Source: Acidobacteriota bacterium (GTDB taxonomy: Bacteria; Acidobacteriota; Vicinamibacteria; Vicinamibacterales; CAVVIG01). From it: a stretch of DNA of 64,000 nucleotides. Every line of letters starts with the position of its first letter. Position 1 is the stretch's first letter. The notes below the pieces were generated by a model. It was given only the letters and a program-made list of their open reading frames with translations. It made no database searches and had not been told where the DNA came from. Both the position numbers and the translations under genes were made by a program. Positions 6,007-51,647 of the stretch are shown piece by piece. The stretch is from NCBI GenBank assembly GCA_016195265.1, contig JACPZW010000086.1, positions 1-64,000 on the forward strand, written 5' to 3'.

Positions 6007-6277
6007 CCATTAAAGAGTACAAGATTCGGAACAGCATTCACCGTGCCGCCGCTCGTTCCCGCGGACCCTTTGTCAGCGGTGACGGACGATGTCCACGCGG
6101 GTGCTGGCCCTGCCGCTGATGACGAACCTGCTGAAGCGTGCTGAAGCGTCGGCCATGGGTTACACTGCCGGTGACACAGCCCGGTCATCTTCATCGCTCG
6201 GAATTGCGCGCGGTCGGGGCGTCGGGTGCCGCGCGATGATCGCTGGGAGGGGCGCGCGACACGCGACCGTGACGTCG

Positions 6278-6895
6278 ATGGATCGCAAAGCGCACTGGGA
6301 CGAAATCTACGCCACGACGGCGTCGGACGCGGTCAGTTGGTTCCAGCCAGAGCCGTCGGTGTCCCTCCGCTTGCTCGACGCGGCAGGCATGACGCCAGCG
6401 ACGTGAGTGATCGACATTGGGGGCGGGGATTCCCGCCTCGTGGATCATCTCCTCGCGCGCGGGCTGCGCTGTCTCACGGTGTTGGACGTCTCCCACACCG
6501 CGCTCGCCCGTGCGCGTGCCCGGGTTGCGCCGCTGGCACACCACGTGTCGTGGATCGAGGCGGACGTGACGGCTGACACCTGGCCCGTGCCGCCGGTCGA
6601 CATCTGGCACGACCGGGCCGTGTTCCATTTTCTGATCGAGGCCGACGACCGCGCGCAATACGCCGCCCGCGTGCGTCAGGCGGTCATGCTGGGGGGCTCC
6701 GTCATCATCGGGACCTTTGCGCTCGACGGCCCTGAGCGGTGTAGCGGTCTGCCGGTCCGCCGCTACGATGCTGAGGGGCTTTGCGCCGAACTCGGCGACG
6801 GATTCACCCTGGAAGAGACCCTGACGGACGCGCATCGGACGCCAGCCGGCACCGTGCAGTCGTTCCTCTACGTGCGGCTCGTTCGGCAACGATAA
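6278..6895 (+). CDS. Class I SAM-dependent methyltransferase with one in-frame TGA (6404-6406): candidate selenoprotein or nonsense-disrupted gene
   Basis: MDRKAHWDEIYATTASDAVSWFQPEPSVSLRLLDAAGMTPAT[TGA]VIDIGGGDSRLVDHLL...; frame is continuous on both sides of the TGA; SAM motif I follows it. Confidence 0.75.
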
Positions 6896-6914: not shown

Positions 6915-7123
6915 ATGACGGAGCCGACGCGGACCGCGATCGTGACGTGCCCGCTCTGCGGCCATCAGGCCGAAGTGACGATGCCAGCAACGCCTGCCAG
7001 TTCTTCTACGAGTGCAAGGGCTGCGGGATGCTTCTGAAGCCGAAGCCGGGCGACTGTTGCGTGCTCTGCTCGTACGCGAACACGCCGTGCCCGCCGAAAC
7101 AGGACGAGCACGGCGGCTGCTGA
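6915..7123 (+). pseudogene. Cys-rich 'GDCCVxCSY..PCPP' small protein interrupted by a 1-nt frameshift
   Basis: MTEPTRTAIVTCPLCGHQAEVTMP in one frame, NACQFFYECKGCGMLLKPKPGDCCVLCSYANTPCPPKQ in the next; one base appears missing near 6984-6992. Confidence 0.65.
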
Positions 7124-10455: not shown

Positions 10456-11268
10456 CTAGGCGAGCGTTCCCGCCCTCTTCATCTGTGCGGCGCGCTGCCG
10501 GCCGAGCCGCGCGGCGCCCAGCGCGCCCACGAACTGCACGAGATCGGGCGCCGGCAGATTGACCGCGGCGCCGAGACGCGCAGACAGCAGGCGCCCCATC
10601 GATTCGAAGCGCAGAATTCCACCGACGAGCGTGTACTCGGGCTCGAGCTGCACGCGCCGCATCAGCTGAATGGAGCGATCCACGAGCGACTCAATCGCCC
10701 CCTGCATGATGTCGGAGGGCGACGTGCCCTGCGACAGATGATTGATGACCTCCGATTCCGCGAACACCGCGCAGACGCCGGAGATCGTCGCCGGTGTTTT
10801 CGACATCGCCGCGAGCGGTCCGATCTCTTCGGTGCCGTAGCCCATGTAGCGCGCCGTTTTTTCCAGAAAGGCGCCGGTGCCGGCCGCGCACTTGTCGTTC
10901 AGCCGGAACGACCGCACCTTCGACAGCGCGTCCACGCGCGTCGCCTTCATCGTCTGGCCGCCGACGTCGAGGATCGTGCGCGTGCCGGGGTAGAGCAGCG
11001 TGGCCCCGCGCGCCGCCGCCGTCAGATCGGTGACGTACACGTCGGCGAACGTCACCTGATGGCGGCCGTAGCCGGTGGCGATGAGATACGCGACGTCCGC
11101 CTCGCGGATTCCTGCGCCGGCGAGCGCGGCGTCGTAGGCGCGGCGCGCCGCGTCCGCCAGCTTGAATCCCGTCTTCAGCATCGCGCGGCCGGCGATGCGC
11201 GCGTCGTCGCCGAGAATCGCGGCCTTCGTGTACGTCGAGCCGACGTCGATACCGGCCGTGAACGTCAT
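10456..11268 (-). CDS. bcrD: Benzoyl-CoA reductase ATPase/activase subunit (BcrD/BzdQ-like)
   Basis: '[18 protein letters not shown]' ASKHA phosphate loop; '[13 protein letters not shown]' cluster-ligand motif; operon context. Confidence 0.85.
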
Positions 11269-12104
11269 ACGTTCCGGACTCCCGAATCTGAATTCTGAAT
11301 TCTGAATTCTGAATTCTCCCGGTTTCCCACAATGTGATCCCGCGCGAACAGGGCGGCGCCGATCGCACCCATGAAGTGCGCCTCGTCACTGACGTTCACG
11401 TCGAACCCGAGCGCCTCGTTCAAGCCGCGCACCATGCCGACGTTCTTCGTCACGCCGCCCGTGAACGTGACCTCGCGCTCGATGCCGACGCGGCGCAGGA
11501 GGCCGACCGATCGCGACACCATCGATCGGTGAATGCCGAGCAGGATGTCCTCGACCTTCTTGCCGCGTCCGAGCCACGACAGCACTTCCGACTCGGCGAA
11601 CACGGTGCACGTCGTGGTGATCTTCACGGGCTTGTCGGACTGCAGCGCGATCGCGCCGAGATCCTGCAGCGGGATGTCGAGCGCCGACGCCACCGCGCCG
11701 AGGAAGCGGCCGGTGCCCGCGGCGCACTTGTCATTCATGCAGAAGTCCACGATCTCGCCCGTCGGCCCGACGCGGATCGCCTTCGTGTCCTGACCGCCCA
11801 TGTCCAGGACCGTGCGCGTGCCCGGGAACAGATGGACGGCACCGCGTCCGTGACAGCTGATTTCGGTCACCTGCGTGTTGCCGAACGTCACGCGATACCG
11901 TCCGTAGCCGGTGCCGACGACGTAGCCGACTTCCTCTTCCTGGATGCGCGCGTCGGTCAGCGCCCGCACGTAGGCGTTCTCCGCCGCGACGACGACGTTC
12001 GCGCCCGTGTCGATGAGGGCGCGGCCGGTGACGACGCCACGCTCGTCGACGATGACGGCTTTCGTTTGCGTCGATCCCACGTCCACGCCTGCAGCGTATG
12101 CCAT
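11265..12104 (-). CDS. bcrA: Benzoyl-CoA reductase ATPase/activase subunit (BcrA/BzdP-like)
   Basis: '[19 protein letters not shown]'; '[13 protein letters not shown]'; operon context. C-terminal tail [17 protein letters not shown] lies in a heptamer repeat. Confidence 0.85.
11290..11317. repeat. Heptamer tandem repeat (GAATTCT x4) at the bcrA 3' end
   Basis: gaattct x4. Confidence 0.93.
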
Positions 12105-51335: not shown

Positions 51336-51647
51336 TTACACTTTCACCACCTCGCCGATCAGCATGTCAGGCATCCCGTCGAGGAAGTTCTTAATGTCGC
51401 CCACCAGTTCTCCGCTCCGCGGGCTCTGCATCGCTTTCTACAGCGCGGGTCCGGATTCGAAATACTCCGAGAAGATCACCTGGTAGGACGGCGCCGCGCC
51501 GTTCGGCGTGGCGGTGATCTTGACCATCTCCGTTCCGGTCACGCCGTGCGGACCGAAGATGGCGCCCGCGAGCCGCAGCTGCTTCGCTACGTAATAGGCT
51601 TCGTTGAACCGAACGCCGTGCTTGTGGCAGACTCTCAGAACCGTCAT
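51336..51647 (-). pseudogene. EthD-like protein interrupted by in-frame TAG (51438-51440)
   Basis: MTVLRVCHKHGVRFNEAYYVAKQL...YFESGPAL[TAG]KAMQSPRSGELVGDIKNFLDGMPDMLIGEVVKV*; same frame continues past the TAG. Confidence 0.75.

Follow-up and report, generated by a model that had tools for sequence, protein, structure and literature searches.

Does the single in-frame TGA of a methyltransferase gene from an Acidobacteriota genome interrupt that gene, or does it encode selenocysteine (Sec)? The gene lies at 6278-6895 on the forward strand of the window, the 64,000-nucleotide stretch of DNA that we analysed. An earlier note, made from the letters of the window, described a methyltransferase frame unbroken except for a TGA at 6404-6406, directly before SAM motif I, and proposed that this TGA may encode Sec. 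The frame and all of its coordinates proved correct. When the TGA is read as a residue, the frame encodes 205 amino acids (MDRKAHW...PAT-U43-VIDIGGGDSR...), with the TGA at residue 43 as its sole internal stop and a terminal stop at 6893-6895. The start at MD(R/x) is common to the homologs of the protein, and an alternative in-frame GTG start is present at 6269. The read-through protein scored above the cut-offs of Pfam Methyltransf_25, Methyltransf_12 and Methyltransf_11 (PF13649, PF08242, PF08241), and it carries both a Rossmann methyltransferase domain and the motif I sequence VIDIGGGDS, as class I SAM-dependent methyltransferases do. We conclude that the gene very probably encodes a Sec-containing class I SAM-dependent methyltransferase. 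Computationally, Sec at the TGA is close to certain; the substrate proposed below for the enzyme is something we infer.

We found the methyltransferase in 26 of the 193 genomes of the class. TGA occupies codon 43 in five genes, that of the window and L014, L015, L029 and L030, which represent five genera in four families (f1, f5, f2 and f15). Aligning homologs at the TGA column, a check that the earlier note had suggested, gave TGA in these five; among the nearest relatives that lack the TGA, most have Cys and a few have Arg or Ser. Thus Sec pairs with Cys at the UGA column, as expected of a bacterial selenoprotein, and the UGA stands in a conserved frame that is constrained on both sides. Distant homologs carry Ser, Ala, Arg, Pro, Thr, Lys or Glu at column 43, and therefore Sec43 is not essential to the chemistry of the whole family. 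In the tree all five fall into one clade of TGA genes (support 98/94), and its neighbours are a pair of genes from one genome, G131 (L032 with Cys and L045 with Arg), and a further Arg form, L021. No further TGA form was found outside the class in a phylum-wide sample. A scan of viral contigs found no relatives, and a scan of genome contigs found a single one.

Behind the TGA lies a hairpin resembling a bacterial SECIS element. At 6420-6439 on the forward strand an 8-bp stem, with arms GGGGCGGG (6420-6427) and CCCGCCTC (6432-6439), closes the loop GATT (6428-6431), just as had first been described. The loop starts 22 nt after the TGA, a position that fits bacterial SECIS, and its first base is G, so that the hairpin has a G within the first two bases of its loop and stands just 3' of the UGA. 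Folding of the 45 nt after the TGA with ViennaRNA extended the hairpin to 6407-6448 through a lower stem (6407-6412 with 6443-6448, and 6414-6415 with 6440-6441) and gave a minimum free energy of -24.2 kcal/mol. The earlier note had doubted its own hairpin, which might have arisen by chance. This doubt did not hold up: an equally good stem whose first two loop bases include a G appeared in 0.9% of synonymous recodings of the same peptide (p = 0.009), and the stem recurs behind the TGA in the four orthologs, where the same test gave p values of 0.004-0.06. Standard pairs fill 97.5% of the pair cells in the five TGA genes, versus 52-72% when the partner is slid, and the few differences in the stem are G-U/A-U and G-C/G-U exchanges and one opened closing pair. 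No two-sided compensatory change was seen in the hairpin among the five TGA sequences. Because these are only five sequences, and the hairpin overlaps a conserved coding motif, compensatory covariation is uninformative here and we used third-position constraint instead.

At conserved residues of the TGA genes, the fraction of third positions that differ was 0.23 over codons 44-57 versus 0.50 elsewhere, whereas in the Cys genes it was 0.52 over the same codons versus 0.44 elsewhere; these comparisons are mutually non-independent and carry no p-value. The lowest third-position windows of the entire gene start, in the TGA genes, at codons 40-44, that is, at the TGA. The hairpin is under synonymous constraint in the TGA genes only, and we rank this as the strongest evidence that it is a SECIS element. 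A stem as strong as that of the window was found in only one of the scored TGA-free homologs, the Arg form L045. The genome of L045, G131, has no SelB over the cut-off, yet the gene keeps a hairpin as strong as a SECIS. L045 may be a former Sec gene that has lost its UGA, and its hairpin a possible fossil SECIS.

The host genome (G000; 87 contigs, 91% complete) carries the machinery for Sec insertion. We found a tRNA-Sec (56.7 bits against the Rfam model, with anticodon TCA according to ARAGORN), SelA (535.8 bits) and SelB (333.7 bits, frame uninterrupted). The earlier note had seen no sel genes; this is true within the window but not of the genome, where the search that it recommended recovered tRNA-Sec, SelA and SelB. 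SelD was not found above the cut-off in the host draft assembly, at its 91% completeness, or in the draft G007. It is present, with a TGA of its own, in G001, from the genus of the host, and in all but one of the five other genomes that have a Sec-position TGA, and we read its absence from the host assembly as an apparent assembly gap. Both tRNA-Sec and SelB were over their cut-offs in 6/6 genomes with a TGA at position 43 or 29 (for position 29, see below), and SelB was over its cut-off in 11 of the 20 other methyltransferase-bearing genomes that were checked. Seven of ten genomes checked for SelD (G001, G003, G029, G042, G071, G092 and G124) have a selD gene with one in-frame TGA. This indicates that these lineages use Sec, and SelD itself is probably a selenoprotein in the host lineage.

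Sec machinery, the TGA/Cys column, conservation of the TGA across genera and constraint on the hairpin all support the original proposal that this TGA may encode Sec, and the checks of the genome and of the homologs that the earlier note had named as able to refute it did not do so. In the mechanism that we propose, the UGA at 6404-6406 would be decoded by tRNA-Sec, delivered by SelB bound to the hairpin about 20 nt downstream. Decoding would place Sec at residue 43, with which strand beta-1 is predicted to begin, just ahead of SAM motif I.

Genome-wide reassignment of UGA to another amino acid such as Trp would likewise open the frame, but it is exceedingly improbable given SelA and SelB frames free of internal TGA, a column 43 without Trp in any homolog, and a SECIS-like hairpin kept beside the TGA in the TGA genes.

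A second reading holds that there are two products: the UGA would end a 42-residue leader, and translation would re-initiate at an overlapping GTG to give a 162-aa protein. The window does have the sequence TGAGTG and a 162-aa open reading frame from 6407. However, the codon after the TGA is GTC in L029 and ATC in L030, which are not usual starts, and we rejected re-initiation at GTG 6407 on the ground that this start codon is not conserved. The supposed leader also contains H6, W7, S20 and W21, all invariant or near-invariant, and is under constraint equal to that on the rest of the protein. Finally, re-initiation leaves the Cys at column 43 of the relatives unexplained. We consider this reading very improbable.

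The gene might instead be broken, a Cys (TGC/TGT) or Arg codon having become TGA in a pseudogene or through a sequencing or assembly error. Damage of this kind does occur nearby, since the neighbouring gene at 6915-7123 is frameshifted and another gene of the window has an internal TAG. The family also offers a precedent in L039, from G110, where TGA replaces the invariant Trp7 of the HWxxxY motif and no ATG is present at the usual place. Neither SelB nor tRNA-Sec was over the cut-offs in G110. With a TGA at an invariant Trp and a genome lacking Sec machinery by these cut-offs, L039 was rejected as a Sec candidate and attributed to decay or error; it is probably a pseudogene or an error, and serves as a negative control for a TGA that does not encode Sec.

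The genes with TGA at codon 43 behave differently. When the window gene was compared with L014 or L015, dS exceeded 1, and dN/dS was 0.16-0.20 upstream of the TGA and 0.16-0.17 downstream. Against L029 and L030 it was 0.20 downstream of the TGA, and upstream dS was saturated. The low dN/dS 3' of the TGA indicates that the gene is not truncated at codon 43. Moreover, four further genomes carry the identical codon although dS exceeds 1, and a TGA retained between genera whose synonymous sites have saturated cannot be a sequencing error. On codon conservation and dN/dS we rejected pseudogene or error for the family. The synonymous constraint specific to the hairpin, and the Sec machinery in every genome with a Sec-position TGA, likewise speak against a broken gene, which we regard as very improbable for the window copy. 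Sec at residue 43 thus remains our reading of the TGA.

Residue 43 may not be the only Sec site of the family. In G071, a genome of the same class but a different family, two paralogs (L043 and L046) each have a TGA at residue 29 (PAT-U-LELIG), a column that is Ser in 48 of the 51 aligned homologs. Both have a hairpin, TCGGCGC/AGTT/GCGCCGA, with a correctly placed start and a stem p value of 0.10, and G071 has tRNA-Sec and SelB. No homolog with Cys at column 29 was found among those aligned, and the residue-29 TGA occurs in one genome only. It is likely that residue 29 of L043 and L046 is Sec, and that it represents a second, independent Sec site in this methyltransferase family.

A 2026 review counts 119 prokaryotic selenoprotein families or subfamilies (PMC13188914). 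The methyltransferases in that inventory are ArsM and its fusions, MduS, the UXPK-star fusion and the DNA-protein-cysteine methyltransferase, and the window methyltransferase is absent from it (PMC13188914). We also found no earlier report of this Sec methyltransferase in the literature searched, which was the main text of papers outside subscription journals. We call it a new selenoprotein family, the Sec variant of a known methyltransferase family.

Comparison with cut-offs covered the methyltransferase families of the inventory with models that we examined. The ArsM selenoproteins (NF008823, NF041536, NF041537) are likewise class I SAM methyltransferases that contain Sec in some bacteria and act in metal(loid) detoxification. 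However, their Sec motif is UxxG (PMC13188914), whereas the window protein has U43-V-I-D; no ArsM family matched the window protein, and ArsM_AhpD_UU reached 16.6 bits against a cut-off of 510, in L014 only. MduS (NF045649) shares a PF13649-type methyltransferase domain and aligned weakly over residues 2-119, but the window protein scored 17.6 bits against a cut-off of 380, and the MduS model, of 338 aa, has two Sec and a CxxU motif while the window gene has one TGA. The methyltransferase/UXPK-star double selenoprotein (NF047649) also combines a methyltransferase domain with Sec, but it has two Sec, the window protein has no UXPK domain, and the score was 15.5 bits against 460. With scores so far below the cut-offs, membership in ArsM, MduS or UXPK-star was rejected.

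Which residues might serve the chemistry of the enzyme? The one invariant cysteine of the family is Cys155 (GPx-x-CSGLP), in the loop after beta-5. Also invariant are W7, W21, D46, H111, D112, H117, H186, T188, P189 and Q194. Because Cys155 is conserved in 51/51 homologs, it is, judged from the alignment, the core soft residue of the family, and Sec/Cys43 is a supplement found in part of it. A structure model built from two sequences had low confidence (pLDDT 64), too weak for residue distances; its nearest folds were halide methyltransferases, TehB, the bacillithiol methyltransferase NmbA and other class I methyltransferases. By sequence profile, the matches were 6mro, 8gdu and 9w6x. The halide and thiol methyltransferases, TehB and NmbA methylate soft nucleophiles and resemble the low-confidence model in fold, but they are only about 20% identical to the window protein, and they are not known to be selenoproteins. 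This suggests that soft-nucleophile methyl transfer is a likely chemistry for the family. Cys155 may handle a substrate that is a soft metal(loid), a chalcogen or a thiol, and in one clade Sec/Cys43 could contribute a further soft ligand or a partner in redox chemistry. Substrate, role of Sec43 and any spatial pairing of Sec43 with Cys155 are, at this stage, what we infer.

The gene neighbourhood bears on the substrate. Immediately downstream of the methyltransferase, at 6915-7123 on the forward strand, is a gene for a GDCCVxC-domain (seleno)protein in its Cys form (GDCCVLC), which matched NF041374 with 69 bits against a cut-off of 40. The earlier note had called this gene frameshifted, and we confirmed that its CPLCG N-terminal part and its FFYECKGC...GDCCVLC part lie in different frames. 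The frameshift reflects error or decay, and local sequence errors or decay near the methyltransferase are possible. GDCCVxC, or GOS_B, is a separate small protein whose Sec/Cys family is already in the review (PMC13188914). In 4 of 17 cases in the class no more than about 1.5 kb separates its gene from the methyltransferase, and the two are also adjacent on a Paraburkholderia plasmid. Near other homologs we found RND pumps, P-type ATPases with heavy-metal-binding (HMBD) or YHS domains, a cation diffusion facilitator (CDF), CusB-type adaptors, an ArsR-rhodanese regulator, and DUF302 and DUF411 proteins. Plasmid homologs adjoin heavy-metal ATPases, an ArsR-family regulator, heavy-metal two-component genes and chrA. 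At some Sec-form loci, L070 and L072-L074, no obvious metal gene was present among the genes checked.

We propose that the enzyme is a thiol/selenol-assisted methyltransferase, which probably works alongside the neighbouring GDCCVxC protein in detoxifying heavy metal(loid)s. Because some Sec-form loci have no obvious metal gene, we put a metal(loid) role for the methyltransferase at slightly under even. The strongest competing view accepts Sec and has the enzyme act apart from metals, as a small-molecule thiol methyltransferase or a redox-regulated one in which Sec43 is a redox switch. The neighbourhoods of L070 and L072-L074 agree with it, as do the thiol methyltransferase NmbA and the echinomycin thioacetal enzyme among the fold neighbours. 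Against it, metal-efflux and GDCCVxC neighbours recur in unrelated lineages, and we give it a substantial chance that nevertheless falls short of even. The boldest reading is that Sec was acquired at residue 43 in one clade and at residue 29 in two paralogs, that in both it works with Cys155 so that a soft metal(loid) or chalcogen is bound or activated for methylation, and that the enzyme and GDCCVxC form a two-gene module. Taken with all its parts, this reading is speculative and rather unlikely to hold entire.

Nucleoside phosphorylase may be another partner of the family. The Cys form of G094 (L076:2595-4016) is one frame of 473 aa, in which the methyltransferase is followed by a nucleoside phosphorylase domain (PF01048), and a nucleoside phosphorylase gene also adjoins the homolog L096 on a Mesorhizobium plasmid.

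Standard gene calling stops or restarts at the TGA, so that databases miss such a protein or carry it in truncated form. If it is confirmed, the methyltransferase adds a selenoprotein family that is missing from the 2026 inventory and lies outside the thioredoxin-fold majority. Its parent family is widespread, including on plasmids with metal-resistance genes. The natural Sec, Cys, Ser, Ala and Arg variants at one site allow a direct test of what selenium contributes to a methyltransferase, and the link to GDCCVxC offers a way into a second selenoprotein family whose function is unknown.

Elsewhere in the window, a crude GC3-based scan gave no convincing second split-frame candidate. The internal TAG that the earlier note had reported in the gene at 51336-51647 (minus strand) is indeed there; this small gene is EthD-like by eye, and its TAG looks like ordinary decay or error. 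Two adjacent minus-strand genes at 10456-12104 resemble, by eye, 2-hydroxyacyl-CoA dehydratase activators.
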